Assembly: GCA_947493215.1 (NCBI GenBank)
Contig: CANLQE010000001.1
Coordinates: forward strand, 62,001-126,000
DNA from: an uncultured Sphingomonadaceae bacterium
GTDB lineage: Bacteria > Pseudomonadota > Alphaproteobacteria > Sphingomonadales > Sphingomonadaceae
DNA length: 64,000 nucleotides
Direction: 5' to 3'
In this document: one piece after another, positions 16,764 through 30,447 of the stretch
Position numbering within the stretch: the first letter of the stretch is position 1
Layout: each line of letters begins with the position of its first letter
Notes under the pieces: generated by a model
Database searches by the model: none
Seen by the model: the letters and a program-made list of their open reading frames with translations, nothing else
Told to the model about the DNA's origin: nothing
Made by a program: the position numbers and the translations under genes

Positions 16764-17126
16764 CTATTCAACTGCACTTTTTGCAGCGTCTGCGCCCTTT
16801 TCGATCAGATCGTTAGCGGCGCCTTTGGCAGCATCTTTTGCTTTGTCAGCGACAGAGTCTGCGGCTTCGCCAGCAGCGTCGGTAGCTTCAGCAGCAGCGC
16901 CTTCAGCGGCTTCACCAGCTTCTTCAGTTGCTTCTGCGGCAGCTTCGCCCATGGCGTCTGCAGAACCTTCAGCAGCGTCCATTGCATCGTCCGCAGCTTC
17001 TTCGGCAGTGGCTTCTGAACCTTCTACGGCTTCTTCAGCACCAGCTTCTGCATTTTCAGCAGCACCGGAACACGCAGCCAGCCCGAGAGCAGCAGCTAGA
17101 ACGATTGATGTTGTAACTTTTTTCAT
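16764..17126 (-). CDS. Ala/Glu-rich low-complexity lipoprotein
   Basis: A 120-residue predicted lipoprotein with lipobox GLAAC-S (Cys19). The mature protein is almost entirely Ala, Glu, Asp, Gly and Ser with one short basic stretch (ADKAKDAAKGAANDL). It has imperfect 4- and 11-residue periodicity (EEAADDAMDAAEGSADAMGE, then EATEEAGEAAEGAAAEAT), suggesting long amphipathic helices as in LEA-like or Lpp-like surface proteins. Overlapping frames on the other strand are long only because of the repetitive GC pattern. The function is unknown; an outer-membrane or periplasmic spacer role is a guess. The gene has its own terminator. Confidence 0.75.
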   Translation of the reverse strand: MKKVTTSIVLAAALGLAACSGAAENAEAGAEEAVEGSEATAEEAADDAMDAAEGSADAMGEAAAEATEEAGEAAEGAAAEATDAAGEAADSVADKAKDAAKGAANDLIEKGADAAKSAVE

Positions 17127-17319
17127 TGGGTAAACCCTTTATCTTTCCTCAATATAACATGCGAGCAGATGATTTTCTCCCTCATTCAACTCACGGAGCG
17201 TGCTATTAAACGGTTGAAAAAAGGATAGCAATGGCGAACACCCTTAAGCCATGATCCCTTTAGGTTTTTTTTGGTGCAGTCTGCAATATTGGTGATTTAA
17301 GCCCAGCAAATGTAATGGA

Positions 17320-17350
17320 TTGACTACATATAAAGAATTCTTTATATGTA
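17320..17350 (+). promoter_or_regulatory. promoter with 26-bp palindromic operator for the methionine-cycle operon
   Basis: A perfect 26-bp palindrome occupies 17325-17350 (half-site TACATATAAAGAA). It starts on the last base of a -35 match TTGACT (17320-17325) and covers the 17-base spacer and the -10-like TATATG (17343-17348). This promoter would start RNA near 17355, right at the ATG at 17358. The position fits autoregulation by the ArsR-type product encoded immediately downstream. Confidence 0.75.
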
Positions 17351-17357
17351 TTGGAAG

Positions 17358-18383
17358 ATGGACAAAATTTTGATCATATTCCGAGCACTAGCGGATCCCA
17401 CCCGGATACGAATCATGCTCTTATTGCTCAAAATGGAACTCGCGGTTGGCGAGCTTGCGCAAATTTTAGCGCAAAGTCAGCCACGCATTTCACGCCACAT
17501 AAAGATATTAGGTGAGGCAGGATTGGCCGAGCGAAGGAAAGAGGGAAGTTGGGTTTTCCTGAGGCCTGGTCAAGCAGCTGAACTAGATATGTTACGCCGC
17601 CTTTTTCGCTCCGACTCTGTTATTTCTTCGAAACAGGCAATCCTTGATGAAGCACAACTTAGCCTGGTTCGCAAAACGCGAGCCGAAATGGCAGAGCGTT
17701 ATTTTGACGCTCATGCTGAGGAATGGGATGCCATCCGGTCTTTGCATATTGCAGAAGACGATGTCGAACAGGCAATGCTGGCTTTGCTGAAGGACGTTAA
17801 CTTGGGGCATATGCTTGATATTGGCACAGGGACTGGTCGGATGATCGAACTATTCGGACCCAAATCGGAAAAAATTACCGCGCTGGACAAAAGTCCAGAG
17901 ATGCTCCGGCTGGCCCGCGCCAAGATATTAGGAAACGAAGCGGATCAGACGGAGCAAGCCGCGTTGGCGAGAAAAACTGAGCTTAAACTCGGCGATTTCA
18001 ATAATTTACCTATTGGTAATGGCCAGATTGATAGCGTCGTTTTGCATCAGGTTCTTCATTATGCCCAGCATCCCGAGGCGGTTCTTGCCGAAGTATCCCG
18101 CGTGCTTTGCAGTAACGGTACCATGATGATTGTTGATTTTGCTGCGCATGACCGCGAGGAACTGCGAACTGCGCATGCCCATGCTCGCCTTGGGTTTTCC
18201 GAAGACAGCATGAAAAGGTGGTTTGCCGCCTCACAGATCGACTTGGTGCAAAGCAGAACACTCGATGGTGGCGAGTTGACCGTCAAAATATGGGTTGGAC
18301 GAAAGTCCGCCCTGCCTCAGATCAACCCCGACGGCAGTTCGGCTTCCTTCTCCAATATTCCCAAAAAAAGAGCGTCCTTATGA
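17358..18383 (+). CDS. sahR: SahR-like ArsR regulator fused to a SAM-methyltransferase domain
   Basis: A 341-residue fusion. Residues 1-95 are an ArsR/SmtB winged helix (FRALADPTRIRIMLLL, recognition region SQPRISRHIKILGEAGL); residues about 135-300 are a class I methyltransferase fold with SAM-binding LDIGTGTGRM near 150. No metal-binding cysteines are seen. ArsR proteins controlling S-adenosylhomocysteine recycling (SahR) regulate metF, metH and ahcY in proteobacteria, and here metF follows with an ATGA overlap. I chose the second ATG (17358): it gives the usual ArsR start, whereas the ATG at 17346 lies inside the operator. The mRNA may be leaderless. The SahR assignment is by context. Confidence 0.8.
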   Translation: MDKILIIFRALADPTRIRIMLLLLKMELAVGELAQILAQSQPRISRHIKILGEAGLAERRKEGSWVFLRPGQAAELDMLRRLFRSDSVISSKQAILDEAQLSLVRKTRAEMAERYFDAHAEEWDAIRSLHIAEDDVEQAMLALLKDVNLGHMLDIGTGTGRMIELFGPKSEKITALDKSPEMLRLARAKILGNEADQTEQAALARKTELKLGDFNNLPIGNGQIDSVVLHQVLHYAQHPEAVLAEVSRVLCSNGTMMIVDFAAHDREELRTAHAHARLGFSEDSMKRWFAASQIDLVQSRTLDGGELTVKIWVGRKSALPQINPDGSSASFSNIPKKRASL

Positions 18384-19336
18384 CCGAACAGACAAGACCT
18401 TTAGGCCTGAGCGAATTAGAAGAAGCAAAGCGCGCGCTAGACATCCCCCTTTTTGCTGGCCTTAGCGGTGATGCGGACGTGTCCTTTGAGTTTTTTCCTC
18501 CGAAAAGCGAAAAAATGGAACAAACCCTGTGGGATAGCGTGGTGACCCTTGAGCCGCTTAACCCGCGGTTTGTGTCGGTGACTTACGGTGCTGGCGGATC
18601 CACGCGGGAGCGTACACATGCCACAGTCGCGCGAATTGCCAAGGAGACACAGATTCCTGCAGCGGCGCACCTGACCTGTGTTGGCGCCAGCAAGGCGGAA
18701 ATTGCTGAGGTTGCGCAGTCCTATTGGGAAGCGGGAGTGCGGCATATTGTCGCGTTGCGCGGTGATCCACCATCGGAAGGGCAAGCGTTTGAACCGCATC
18801 CCGAAGGTTACCAAAGTGCCGCGGAACTGGTTAAAGGGCTGAAAGACATTGCGCCGTTTGAGATTTCAGTGGCCGCTTATCCCGAAACACACCCGGAAGC
18901 GAGTTGTCCGCAGACTGATCTCGACAATCTGAAACGCAAGCTGGATGCCGGTGCAAGCCGCGCAATTACGCAGTTTTTCTTTACCGCTGAGGCCTTTTTC
19001 CGGTTCCGGGATGCTGCAGGCGCCGCAGGAATTGATGCTGAATTGGTTCCCGGCATACTGCCAGTTTCAAACGTGGCACAGACGCGGAAGTTTGCGGGCA
19101 TGTGCGGCGCAGAAATTCCCGTGTGGATGAACGACCTGTTTGAAGGCCTCGATGACCACCCGGCCGCGCGCCAGTTAATCGCAGCAACGGTAGCCGCGGA
19201 ATTGTGCCGCAAGCTTTATGCAGGCGGCGTCCGGCAGTTTCATTTCTACACCCTCAACCGCGCAGAGCTGAGCTATGCGATTTGCCACTTGCTCGGCAAA
19301 CGCCCGACCGGCGCGGCGCAGGAGAAAGCAGCATGA
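18380..19336 (+). CDS. metF: methylenetetrahydrofolate reductase
   Basis: A 318-residue flavoprotein that reduces 5,10-methylene-THF to 5-methyl-THF, the methyl donor for methionine synthase. Motifs include VSFEFFPPKSEKMEQTLW, FVSVTYGAGGSTRERT, HLTCVGASKAEI, VALRGDPP and the C-terminal VRQFHFYTLNRAELSY. The ATG overlaps the stop of the regulator gene as ATGA (18380-18383), and its own stop overlaps the next ATG in the same way, which points to translational coupling through the operon. Length is normal. Confidence 0.95.
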   Translation: MTEQTRPLGLSELEEAKRALDIPLFAGLSGDADVSFEFFPPKSEKMEQTLWDSVVTLEPLNPRFVSVTYGAGGSTRERTHATVARIAKETQIPAAAHLTCVGASKAEIAEVAQSYWEAGVRHIVALRGDPPSEGQAFEPHPEGYQSAAELVKGLKDIAPFEISVAAYPETHPEASCPQTDLDNLKRKLDAGASRAITQFFFTAEAFFRFRDAAGAAGIDAELVPGILPVSNVAQTRKFAGMCGAEIPVWMNDLFEGLDDHPAARQLIAATVAAELCRKLYAGGVRQFHFYTLNRAELSYAICHLLGKRPTGAAQEKAA

Positions 19337-20382
19337 CGAACCCGGGCGATCAGCTCCGCGCGATAGCGGCCGAACGCATCTTGGTCTTTGACGGCGGCTA
19401 TGGCACCGCCATCCAGAATCACGGCCTCGGCGAACGCGATTATCGGGGAAATTTGGAACTGACCGACGATCAGAAAGGCAATAATGACCTGCTCAGCCTG
19501 ACGCGGCCCGATATTATCGAAGGCATTCACTCCGCCTATCTCGAAGCCGGCGCCGATATTGTCGAGACCAATACGTTCAGCTCCACCAAGATTAGCCAAG
19601 CGGATTATAGCTGCGAACATCTGGTCAAAGACCTTAACATCAAATCAGCCGAAATCGCGCGCCGTGCTTGCGACAAGGCTGAGGCCAAAGACGGCCGCAA
19701 ACGCTTTGTCGCCGGTTCCATCGGCCCGACTAACAAGACTTTGTCGCTGTCTCCAGACGTCAACGACCCCGGCTTTCGCGAGATTGATTTCGATTATCTC
19801 AAGGGCGTTTATCGCGAGCAATGCGATGCGCTGATTGAAGGCGGTGTCGATTTTCTGTTGATCGAGACGATCTTTGATACGCTCAACGCCAAATGCGCGG
19901 GCATGGCCGCACAAGAAGCCGCCGATGCTTGCGGTCGTGATGTGCCACTGATGATTTCGATGACCCTGACCGACTTGTCAGGACGCAATCTGTCAGGCCA
20001 TACAGTCGAAGCTTTCTGGCACGCCGTTCGCCACTTGAAACCGCTCACCATCGGGCTCAATTGCTCTTTTGGCGCCGATCAACTGCGCCCACATCTCGCG
20101 ATGCTGACGAAGGAAGCAGATACGCTGATCATGGCCTATCCCAATGCTGGCCTGCCCAATGAACTGGGTGAATATGACGAGATGCCGGATCAAACCGCAG
20201 CGCTGATCAGCGAATGGCTGGACGACGGGCTCGTCAATATTGTCGGCGGATGCTGCGGCACCACACCAGAGCATATCGCGGCGATTGCCAAAGCGGTTGA
20301 AGGCGCCGAGCCCCGCGCCATGGCGTCGCCAATTATCCGGACGCGCTTATCCGGCCTTGAACCTTTCACGATGGCCGCCTGA
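19333..20382 (+). CDS. metH: methionine synthase, homocysteine-binding part (split MetH)
   Basis: A 349-residue protein equal to the N-terminal homocysteine S-methyltransferase domain of cobalamin-dependent methionine synthase. It begins with ILVFDGGYGTAIQ and carries the zinc ligands Cys244 (GLNCSFGAD) and Cys307/Cys308 (GGCCGTTPEH). The protein stops before the pterin domain, which is encoded by the next gene, so the enzyme is made as two polypeptides. The start overlaps metF as ATGA. A domain-splitting frameshift error is unlikely because the 36-base gap has a stop, and the next gene has a proper start. Confidence 0.93.
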   Translation: MTNPGDQLRAIAAERILVFDGGYGTAIQNHGLGERDYRGNLELTDDQKGNNDLLSLTRPDIIEGIHSAYLEAGADIVETNTFSSTKISQADYSCEHLVKDLNIKSAEIARRACDKAEAKDGRKRFVAGSIGPTNKTLSLSPDVNDPGFREIDFDYLKGVYREQCDALIEGGVDFLLIETIFDTLNAKCAGMAAQEAADACGRDVPLMISMTLTDLSGRNLSGHTVEAFWHAVRHLKPLTIGLNCSFGADQLRPHLAMLTKEADTLIMAYPNAGLPNELGEYDEMPDQTAALISEWLDDGLVNIVGGCCGTTPEHIAAIAKAVEGAEPRAMASPIIRTRLSGLEPFTMAA

Positions 20383-20418
20383 TCCGTTCACCGGCACGCT
20401 TCAAAAGAAAACTTATAA

Positions 20419-23037
20419 ATGACCACACCTCCATCTTCCGCGCAATTCGTCAATATTGGCGAGCGTACCAATGTCACCGGTTCCGCGCGGTTCAAAAAAC
20501 TCATCCTCAACGATGATTATGAAGCTGCGGTGGAAGTCGCGCGGCAACAGGTCGAAAATGGCGCGCAAATTATCGATGTGAATATGGATGAAGGCCTGCT
20601 CGACGCGGAACACGCGATGACGACCTTCCTCAAACTCATCTCTGCCGAGCCTGATATCGCGCGGGTTCCGGTGATGATCGACAGCTCCAAATGGTCGGTA
20701 ATCGAAGCGGGCCTGAAATGCGTATCCGGCAAACCGATCGTCAATTCCATCTCGATGAAGGAAGGCGAAGCGGAATTCCTGAAATATGCGCGTAAGTGCA
20801 TGGCTTATGGCGCGGCCGTCGTGGTCATGGCGTTTGATGAAACCGGGCAAGCGGACACCAAGGAACGCAAAGTTGAAATATGCAGCCGCGCCTATGAATT
20901 GCTCACCGGCATCGGCTTTCCGCCAGAAGATATTATCTTTGACCCTAATGTGTTCGCGGTCGCGACCGGCATTGAAGAGCATCGCCGCTATGGGCTCGAT
21001 TTTATCGAAGCCACAGCAGAGATTAAGAAACGCTGCCCGCATGTCCATATTTCGGGCGGCCTATCCAACCTGTCCTTCAGTTTTCGCGGCAACGAACCTG
21101 TGCGCCGCGCGATGCACAGTGTTTTCCTCTATCACGCCATTCCCGCTGGCATGGATATGGCCATCGTCAACGCGGGTCAGCTCGACATTTATGACGATAT
21201 TGATACGGAACTGCGCGAACATTGCGAAGACGTGGTCTTTGACCGCCGCGATGATGCGACCGACCGGCTGATCACACTGGCAGAGAAATTTCGCGGCACC
21301 GATGTCGCTGCGGAAAAAGCGGCTGCCGAATGGCGCGGCTATGATGTCGTGAAGCGCCTCGAACATGCTCTGGTCAAAGGCATTGATGCGCATATTATCG
21401 AAGATACCGAAGAAATGCGGCTGTCCGTCAAAGACGCGGGCGGGCGTCCGATCGAAGTTATCGAAGGCCCATTGATGGACGGCATGAATGTTGTCGGCGA
21501 TCTATTCGGGTCAGGGAAAATGTTCCTGCCGCAAGTGGTCAAATCCGCGCGCGTTATGAAAAAAGCCGTCGCCCATCTCTTCCCCTATATTGAGGCGGAA
21601 AAGGAAGAAGGCGCGAAGGGCAAGGGCAAGATCATCATGGCGACCGTTAAAGGCGACGTGCATGATATCGGCAAAAATATCGTCGGCGTCGTCCTGCAGT
21701 GTAACGGTTTTGAGGTCGTCGATCTGGGTGTCATGGTGCCGTGGACGGACATCATAAAAGCCGCGAATGAAAATGATGCAGATATGATCGGTCTGTCTGG
21801 TCTGATCACACCATCGCTCGACGAAATGGTTACCGTTTCCGAAGAAATGGAGCGTGCCAAGATGACCATGCCGTTGCTCATTGGCGGCGCGACAACTTCC
21901 AAGACCCATACCGCCTTGCGCATTGAGCCTGCTTATTCGGGCCCGACCATCTATGTGCTCGATGCCAGCCGCGCCGTCGGTGTCGCCTCCCAACTGGTCA
22001 GCGATACGCAGGCCGAGGGCTTTATCGCCAGCACCCGTGAAGATTACGAGCAAGTCCGGATTGCGCGCGCCGGCAAGACCGCCAAGAAACTCGCTTCGCT
22101 CAATGAAGCCCGCGCCAATGGTGCTGCCGTAGACATGAGTAAGAAACCACCCGCGCCGAAAAAGCCGGGCATACATGTTTATGACGACTGGGATTTAGCG
22201 GATTTACGAGACTATATTGACTGGACGCCGTTTTTCCGCGCTTGGGAATTGGCCGGCACCTATCCCGCCATCCTGACCGACGACGTGGTCGGCGAAAGCG
22301 CGAGCGATTTGTTCAAAGATGCGCAAGCCATGCTCGATACAATTATCGCGGAAAAATGGCTGACCGCGAAAGGTGTCGCAGGCTTATGGCGCGCACGACG
22401 GGACGGTGATGACATCATGGTCTCTCCGGAAAATGAAGAAGTCGCCTTGCCCATGCTCCGCCAGCAGGTCAGCAAGCGGTCCGGCAAATCAAACAACTGC
22501 CTCGCTGATTTTATCGACACATCAGACGACTGGATGGGCGGCTTTGCGGTCACCGCTGGTCATGGCATTGACGAGCATGTCCAGCGGTTTGAGGCGGACA
22601 AGGATGATTATAACAGCATCCTGATCAAGGCGCTGGCCGACCGGCTCGCCGAAGCTTTTGCCGAGCGTATGCACGAACATGTCCGCAAAGACCTTTGGGG
22701 CTATGCGCCGGATGAGAATCTCGACAATAAGGCACTGGTCCAAGAGAAATATCAAGGTATCCGCCCGGCCCCCGGCTATCCCGCCTGCCCTGACCATAGT
22801 CTGAAACCGATATTATTCGATATGCTGGATGCGACCACCAATACCGGACTGGAACTCACCAGCAGCTTTGCGATGACCCCGACAGCCGCCGTTTCCGGCT
22901 TTTATTTCGGCCACCCGCAAGCCGATTATTTCGGCGTGGCACGGATTGGCGAGGATCAAGTCGAGGATTATGCAACGCGGCGTGCTATTCCGCTGGATCG
23001 TGCACGGCAGTGGTTGCGGCCCAATTTGAACGAATAG
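20419..23037 (+). CDS. metH: methionine synthase, folate/cobalamin/reactivation part (split MetH)
   Basis: An 872-residue protein with the remaining MetH modules. Residues about 8-270 are the pterin-binding barrel ([28 protein letters not shown]), about 300-400 the cap helices, about 405-540 the cobalamin-binding domain with the axial-ligand motif DVHDIGKN (His415), and about 560-870 the SAM-dependent reactivation domain ([13 protein letters not shown]). Together with the preceding protein it transfers the methyl group from 5-methyl-THF to homocysteine. All key motifs look intact. It is the last gene of the SahR-metF-metH operon. Confidence 0.95.
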
Positions 23038-29564: not shown

Positions 29565-29588
29565 TCGGGGCGAATCGATTCGCCCCGA
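29565..29588 (-). terminator. intrinsic terminator of the methyltransferase gene
   Basis: A perfect 24-bp palindrome (TCGGGGCGAATC and its complement) followed on the minus strand by six T. It lies 58 bases beyond the stop of the methyltransferase gene at 29647. Confidence 0.92.
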
Positions 29589-29646: not shown

Positions 29647-30447
29647 TCAGCCAGGCTTACGGAACTTCATCACAAAGCGGTTGGTTTTGCCGCGCACGGA
29701 TGGATCGAACACGTTTTTCTCCAGATCATCGTCCGGATTGGCGAACATATCGCTCTGCGCCTCCAGCACAAAACCTGCTTTTTCAAAATCGGCCTTAGCC
29801 GTGGCCGGACTAATCCGATGGGCTTTCTCGACCACCACTCTTGTGTCTCCCGCATTGCCGACATGATCGACCACCGCAACCACAGCGCCGGGCTTCATAC
29901 CCTTGTAAAGCTTGGTCAGAAAAGCCGCAGGATCCATTCGCGCCACTTTGAACTTTTCGCTTTCCCAGTAAAGGTCATGATAGATGAGATGCATCATCGC
30001 AAAATCATAGCTATTGGCTTCCGGCGTAAAATCACCCAATTGCGACGGCACCATCGACACGCCGGGCTGCCGCGCGGAAATCCCTGCCCATTTGGCCTTT
30101 GCAGCATCGCTGGATACAAATTGCGGTGGGTTTACTGCTACCACGGACCCACCCGAACCAACGGCTGCGCCCATAATTTCGCTATAATAGCCGCCACCTG
30201 CAAAGATATCGAGCACGGCATCGCCCGTTTCCAATCCCATGAAAGCCAAAATTGCGGCGGGCTGCCGGCTGGCATCCAATTTCACATCGCCTTCCTCGCG
30301 GCCGGGCGCGGCTACTGCTGCAGCGAAATCAGGGGCCGCCTGTGCCGCAGCCCCAGATGAAGCGGACGCGGTGTCACCATTATCGTAAGAACAAGCGCCG
30401 AGTGCCAAGGCGGAACTTGCCAAGGCCGTTAAAAATACTGCTCGCAT
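29647..30447 (-). CDS. exported class I SAM-dependent methyltransferase-like lipoprotein
   Basis: A 266-residue protein with a lipobox (LALGAC, Cys19) and an Ala/Ser-rich linker, followed by a methyltransferase fold: motif I in VLDIFAGGGYYSEIMG, and later NSYDFAMMHLIYHDLYW and PGAVVAVVDHVGNAGD. The family (COG4798-like predicted methyltransferases) is commonly exported, which is odd because SAM is not known to be available in the periplasm. The domain may bind another ligand or be catalytically idle. The ATG is preceded by a GGGGAGA site. It is transcribed alone, with its own terminator at 29565. Confidence 0.82.
   Translation of the reverse strand: MRAVFLTALASSALALGACSYDNGDTASASSGAAAQAAPDFAAAVAAPGREEGDVKLDASRQPAAILAFMGLETGDAVLDIFAGGGYYSEIMGAAVGSGGSVVAVNPPQFVSSDAAKAKWAGISARQPGVSMVPSQLGDFTPEANSYDFAMMHLIYHDLYWESEKFKVARMDPAAFLTKLYKGMKPGAVVAVVDHVGNAGDTRVVVEKAHRISPATAKADFEKAGFVLEAQSDMFANPDDDLEKNVFDPSVRGKTNRFVMKFRKPG

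Follow-up and report, generated by a model that had tools for sequence, protein, structure and literature searches.

A predicted SahR operator that supplies the spacer and -10 element of a leaderless-type sahR-metF-metH promoter in Sphingomonadales

SahR of Proteobacteria has a methyltransferase-like sensor domain, and SAH releases the Desulfovibrio protein from DNA. The SahR regulon described for Proteobacteria, which the locus reported here resembles in its ArsR-type repressor, its 20-bp palindrome, and its targets, has a core of sahR, ahcY, metH, metF, and metK (PMC4239095). Data supporting SahR autoregulation have been given for Ensifer aridi in a report that also cites the SAH dependence of Desulfovibrio SahR (PMC8877191). 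SamR of the Xanthomonadales is a distant SahR homologue, which in Xanthomonas co-localizes with metH1 and metH2 (PMC4239095). The closest precedent for the arrangement at our locus is the acuR-acuI-dddL operon of Rhodobacter sphaeroides, in which the repressor gene comes first, the operator is an inverted repeat overlapping the promoter, and the repressor gene lacks a Shine-Dalgarno sequence whereas the downstream genes have one, as metF does in most scored loci here (PMC3017554). According to the same account, operator mutations cause constitutive expression, and the transcription start, predicted here, was mapped there to the ATG by 5′ RACE; AcuR differs further in belonging to the TetR family, in using acrylate as co-inducer, and in serving DMSP catabolism (PMC3017554). 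Lambda cI and Tn1721 tetR are named in that source as leaderless repressor mRNAs, the form predicted here for sahR (PMC3017554).

We analyzed a 64-kb stretch of DNA (the window) from an uncultured Sphingomonadaceae bacterium; the nearest named records to it, among the best 80 of 595, belong to Sphingorhabdus, Parasphingorhabdus, and uncultured Sphingomonadaceae. An earlier note on this DNA had named an ArsR-methyltransferase gene, and the domain matches bear this out: HTH_5 covers residues 13 to 58 of the sahR product and Methyltransf_11 residues 153 to 258 (Table 1). The product thus joins an ArsR-type HTH to a SAM-methyltransferase-like domain, the architecture that defines SahR. The motif D-x-G-T-G-x-G-R was invariant in 27 aligned SahR sequences, and a search of solved structures found no chain matching both SahR domains at E ≤ 1e-6. 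The gene order is sahR-metF-metH with sahR first, and sahR and metF overlap by 4 nt (ATGA). metF lay downstream of sahR in 106 of 108 Sphingomonadales-type loci; among the 95 of these 106 metF starts that were scored, 86 showed the 4-nt overlap and 69 were preceded by a Shine-Dalgarno sequence. Methionine synthase is split over two adjacent genes (19333-23037), the homocysteine domain preceding the other domains. A divergent gene on the minus strand (16764-17126) encodes a 120-aa Ala/Glu-rich lipoprotein-like protein; a Pfam search at E ≤ 0.001 left it unmatched, and a weak Ag473-lipoprotein match fell far below the cut-off. Elsewhere in the window, a 24-bp perfect palindrome (TCGGGGCGAATCGATTCGCCCCGA, 29565-29588), followed by a run of T on the minus strand, stands after the stop of an ORF at 29647-30447 (minus) and looks like an intrinsic terminator.

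Table 1. Positions of the sahR promoter elements and operon genes in the window.
Feature	Position	Strand	Basis or remark
-35 element TTGACT	17320..17325	+	sequence and one-sided conservation left of the core
SahR operator (predicted), 26-bp palindrome	17325..17350	.	sequence, genome copies, family conservation
Operator 20-bp core	17328-17347	.	about -27 to -8
Spacer, -35 to -10	17326-17342	+	17 bp
-10 element TATATG	17343..17348	+	supplied by the right operator half-site
Predicted transcription start	17355..17358	+	17355 if the discriminator is 6 nt; plausible range 17353-17358; Zymomonas rules and conserved spacing
sahR start codon ATG	17358	+	
sahR	17358..18383	+	ArsR-type HTH (HTH_5) and SAM-methyltransferase-like domain, 341 aa
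metF, methylenetetrahydrofolate reductase	18380..19336	+	overlaps the end of sahR by 4 nt (ATGA)
metH part 1, homocysteine methyltransferase domain	19333..20382	+	
metH part 2, pterin-, B12-binding and activation domains	20419..23037	+	

The perfect 26-bp palindrome upstream of sahR (TACATATAAAGAATTCTTTATATGTA) that the earlier note had reported was recovered both by reading the sequence and with a repeat finder; its two 13-nt arms (17325-17337 and 17338-17350) are 100% complementary and gap-free. Among the perfect palindromes of the window it is the longest, and a 13-bp half was reached in none of 200 Markov-1 simulated windows, half-lengths of 12 and 11 occurring once each. The pattern of its 20-bp core occurs once in the window, where 0.09 matches are expected at up to three mismatches. 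A chance AT-rich inverted repeat, or else an RNA hairpin or terminator, is a very improbable account of the palindrome, favored by its AT-richness and nothing else. Chance was rejected because the half-length exceeds that of all 200 simulations, a terminator because the terminator scan found none there, and an RNA element because no Rfam family reached its gathering score at the palindrome. The palindrome would, moreover, stand upstream of the transcript, its core is kept at three promoters and across many genera, and its conservation among relatives contradicts a neutral substitution pattern.

The promoter reading TTGACT-N17-TATATG held at the positions given in Table 1. The palindrome had also been said to span the spacer and -10 element exactly; it does cover both, but it overshoots slightly, taking in the final base of the -35 element and two bases 3′ of the -10. 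As a -10, TATATG is imperfect, and a strict E. coli-type promoter scan of 17100-17420 returned no promoter, because that scan demands T at position 6 of the -10. Zymomonas belongs to the Sphingomonadales. T at this position is unconserved in Zymomonas and Caulobacter promoters, and Zymomonas sigma-A promoters are described as TTGNNN-N17-TANNNN, with a commonest discriminator of 6 nt (PMC7566282). Applied to the window, these rules predict a start at 17355 and a 3-nt leader. Transcripts are classed as leaderless in Zymomonas when the leader is at most 5 nt (119 of 2,675 TSS-gene pairs; PMC7566282), so that the start on the ATG at 17358 proposed earlier stands as to class, whereas the exact base shifts to 17355 with a 6-nt discriminator. 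Since the right half-site doubles as the -10, transcription would begin a few nucleotides before the ATG. The ATG at 17346 was rejected as the sahR start because it falls within the -10 element, before the predicted transcript begins.

A search of the 3.69-Mb genome with the 24-mer at up to three mismatches yielded three sites, at sahR (0 mismatches), upstream of ahcY (2), and upstream of metK (3), and none with the reversed control. Such a search near methyl-cycle genes had been proposed in the earlier note, and the ahcY and metK copies are what it found. A looser 20-mer search, again at up to three mismatches, gave 19 forward matches versus 10 in the reversed control, so the looser sites beyond the main three are mostly noise; flanking genes were inspected at four of them. 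The sites at sahR-metF-metH, ahcY, and metK coincide with the published core regulon, and the 20-bp core upstream of sahR has the length and palindromic form described for SahR operators. Because copies stand upstream of the core-regulon genes ahcY and metK, the palindrome is very probably a SahR operator. With a 6-nt discriminator assumed at each promoter, the core takes three different positions: at sahR it lies between -35 and -10 (about -27 to -8), at ahcY (TTGCTT-N17-TAGAGA) immediately in front of the -35 (about -55 to -36), and at metK (TTGCCA-N17-TAAAGA) at +1 (about -2 to +18). RNA polymerase bound at the promoter would reach the operator in each of the three placements, in keeping with repression. 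In the family set, 43 of 50 ahcY loci have TTG directly against the core, and TA follows TTG at 16 to 18 bp in 40 of 50, compared with 15 of 602 for other spacings; the family metK promoters were read by eye, without counting. Both ahcY and metK are leadered in the source genome, and the metK start falls 8 to 11 nt after the core in 9 of 49 operator-bearing family metK upstream regions.

These targets also bear on the ligand. It is quite unlikely that the regulator answers to SAM or another ligand in a SamR-like manner rather than to SAH, a difference that would leave the operator logic unchanged. A ligand is not readable from sequence, and SamR is described as having no known effector; the same description, however, gives SamR regulons other than this one, without SAM-cycle genes except metK, and a 24-bp motif containing ATC-10 nt-GAT (PMC4239095). 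The motif found here differs, and ahcY is a conserved target with a site of its own.

The presence of SahR and that of its putative operators tend to go together. A search of 59 family genomes, each representing one genus, identified SahR in 53, and 60 of 114 class genomes also had it; for the comparison of operators, genome G056 was moved to the SahR-bearing group (54 in total) because its sahR gene is split over two contigs. At a cut-off of 15/20, ahcY operators occurred in 48 of 54 SahR-bearing and 2 of 5 SahR-lacking genomes (Fisher p = 0.02) and metK operators in 47 of 54 and 2 of 5, a comparison resting on five SahR-lacking genomes of which the two that keep sites are a fragmented assembly (G025) and a borderline case (G017, 15 and 16 of 20). 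The other three (G008, G014, and G026) lack operators at both genes. Together with the ahcY and metK copies and the family conservation described below, these three of five genomes support the repressor operator proposed in the earlier note as a prediction. SahR-bearing genomes with no core of at least 15/20 were G013, G019, G030, G032, G038, and G045 at ahcY and G013, G022, G027, G030, G032, G038, and G045 at metK; some of these subthreshold sites look diverged rather than lost. G013 encodes SahR with its own operator, yet has none at ahcY or metK.

To compare operator placement, we examined sahR upstream regions from 53 family genomes (30 plus 23 loci), 80 named loci (the best 80 of 595 confirmed stretches), and 28 class loci (the best-scoring of 58 matching non-family genomes). 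The start was taken as the first in-frame ATG or GTG at least 3 nt after the core, and distances were judged only where the core scored at least 15/20; the best core scores in 30 control stretches were 7 to 12 of 20. The 108 Sphingomonadales-type loci comprised 106 distinct upstream regions once two duplicates were dropped. Among these (the named ones being the best 80 of 595), the core was present in 104 of 106, and the start lay 6 to 13 nt after it in 98 of 104, most often 8 to 10 nt. Counted by family genome, the start was 5 to 13 nt after a core of at least 15/20 in 48 of 53 SahR-bearing genomes (27 of 30 in one subset, all but L018, L022, and L027, and 21 of 23 in the other, all but G032 and G045); in this second batch the core reached 15/20 in 21 of 23 loci, and all 21 had the 5- to 13-nt spacing. 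Within the genus, TTGAC, the core, and an ATG at 10 to 11 nt were found in 17 of 17 scored loci, with variable flanks. In contrast, of the 25 of 28 other class loci (best-scoring of 58) with a core of at least 15/20, only 5 had a start within 3 to 14 nt, and in 20 the first start codon was at least 15 nt away (15 to 80 nt). The difference in spacing (98/104 versus 5/25) gave a Fisher value of 6.6e-14, and such values overstate independence because the rows are related. What distinguishes our locus from the described SahR regulon is a predicted role of the operator as spacer and -10 of a leaderless-type promoter.

The exceptions were few. The start was displaced in L022 (166 nt), L027 (30 nt), L139 (23 nt), and L114 (15 nt). 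Two Novosphingobium loci (L126 and L142) carry tandem operators, the second beside the start codon; the scored distance was 28 nt in both, and an ATG stands 10 nt past the second core. The core was missing upstream of sahR in L018 and L147. In L018 (genome G034) it is gone at sahR and kept at ahcY (19/20) and metK (16/20), an apparent loss of autoregulation with the regulon retained. G032 has a diverged site at sahR. In G045, a variant palindrome (ATATAAGCGATTGCTTATAT) stands upstream of sahR (L232), 48 nt from the start, and the usual core is unmatched at ahcY and metK; the specificity of this SahR has perhaps changed.

Conservation of the -35 was one-sided. In 71 of 104 upstream regions TTGAC stood no more than 12 nt to the left of the core, and a TTG[ACT]/TTTAC element did so in 102 of 104, whereas to the right the mirrored GTCAA was found in 0 of 104 and a looser mirror in 8 of 104; the element therefore lies outside the palindrome and fits a -35. 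This asymmetry argues against the possibility that the SahR operator is real while the main transcript starts further upstream, giving sahR an ordinary leader and leaving the -10 likeness to the AT-rich operator. We consider such an arrangement unlikely. It would agree with the blank E. coli-type scan, with the distant operators of L022 and of 20 of 25 other alphaproteobacterial loci, and with 52 leaderless Zymomonas units, about half, that have an additional upstream promoter (PMC7566282). However, it leaves unaccounted for a TTGAC-like element on one side only, upstream of TATAT, as well as the 5- to 13-nt distance from core to start codon in 48 of 53 family genomes; L018, having lost its operator, still has TTGACC 32 nt before its ATG, a distance shared with the window, and no Shine-Dalgarno sequence is present to serve an alternative leader.

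The ATG at 17358 lacks a ribosome-binding site, as the earlier note had stated. None of 100 distinct sahR starts of near-operator geometry (Acetobacteraceae included) had a Shine-Dalgarno-like 4-mer at -17 to -4, compared with 55 of 56 scored ahcY starts (of 59), 47 of 58 scored metK starts (of 59), and, in other Alphaproteobacteria, 12 of 20 sahR genes with leaders. This absence is partly forced, because the operator fills much of -17 to -4, and since shuffled sahR upstream sequence contains such 4-mers in only 1.6%, it is permissive for a leaderless mRNA rather than proof of one. By the Zymomonas rules, the leader across the family equals the distance minus 7, mostly 1 to 3 nt, and from sequence a leader of 1 to 6 nt is indistinguishable from zero. 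With the near-fixed distance from operator to ATG across the family and in 17 of 17 genus loci, and with no Shine-Dalgarno sequence, a leaderless or nearly leaderless sahR mRNA, as the earlier note had predicted, is well supported. The operon shares with acuR both an operator, here a predicted one, that overlaps the core promoter and a first gene without a Shine-Dalgarno sequence. In the literature, supplements aside, we found no sphingomonad TSS data covering sahR, nor, judging by titles and abstract starts, a report of a leaderless sahR.

A quick tree of 82 of 139 SahR proteins (51 of 108 Sphingomonadales-type, the named ones sampled every fourth, all 3 Acetobacteraceae, and all 28 class proteins; SH-aLRT support only) separated the 28 other class proteins from the rest by a branch with support 100. 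The three Acetobacteraceae proteins (L118, L122, and L146) fell on the Sphingomonadales side, and all three of their loci carry the Sphingomonadales-type spacing, at 9 to 10 nt. Transfer of the sahR gene together with its promoter between the two groups is a possible reading; nesting within the Sphingomonadales side is itself only suggested, because the branches concerned are unstarred (86 to 91). The leaderless versus leadered label changed 7 times on 78 labelled rows of the tree, so similar spacing arose elsewhere too.

The sequence evidence covers the operator, two further copies, conservation, the near-fixed spacing of -35, operator, and ATG, and the absence of a Shine-Dalgarno sequence. 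We assign a probability of roughly 0.87 to the reading that the palindrome is a SahR autoregulatory operator forming the spacer and -10 of a leaderless or near-leaderless sahR-metF-metH promoter. A SahR dimer bound across these elements would exclude RNA polymerase; by analogy with Desulfovibrio SahR, a rise in SAH would release it and permit joint transcription of sahR, metF, metH, ahcY, and metK. Given the conserved geometry, sahR would be translated without a Shine-Dalgarno sequence from its leaderless or near-leaderless mRNA, and metF would be reached through the 4-nt ATGA overlap. SahR, its palindrome, and its targets were already known; as far as we have searched, the predicted conserved leaderless placement in Sphingomonadales is new. 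More tentatively, and with the odds against it, the operator may have become locked in as the leaderless spacer/-10 in this order (with Acetobacteraceae having it too, perhaps through transfer). Leaderless translation of the repressor would in that case evolve as a single unit with the strengths of operator and promoter, and a second layer of control would come from leaderless initiation, which would keep repressor synthesis low and sensitive to initiation factors ahead of metF-metH. The arrangement provides a testable rule for many genera: a single regulon has the same operator at three different places relative to its promoters, and its regulator would be leaderless. If true, a central metabolic regulator would join the leaderless, self-repressed operons headed by their own repressor. 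Lambda cI and Tn1721 tetR are unrelated to SahR in repressor, effector, and operator layout. The leadered SahR genes of other Alphaproteobacteria offer a natural comparison for the effect of leaderless translation on repressor levels.

At an adenosine kinase-like gene (a relative of PDB 3ubo), the start codon and a Shine-Dalgarno-like AAGGA both lie within a further SahR-like site (ATATAAGGACATCTTTATGA, G000 C1:590450-590469; L011 1501-1520 / L300). This site scored 15 to 17 of 20 in 6 of 19 genus loci, 9 to 11 in the other 13, and at most 12 of 20 in 29 other family loci. The gene may be a new SahR target specific to the lineage, its product removing the adenosine that AhcY makes; alternatively, the site is possibly a chance resemblance built on AAGGA.
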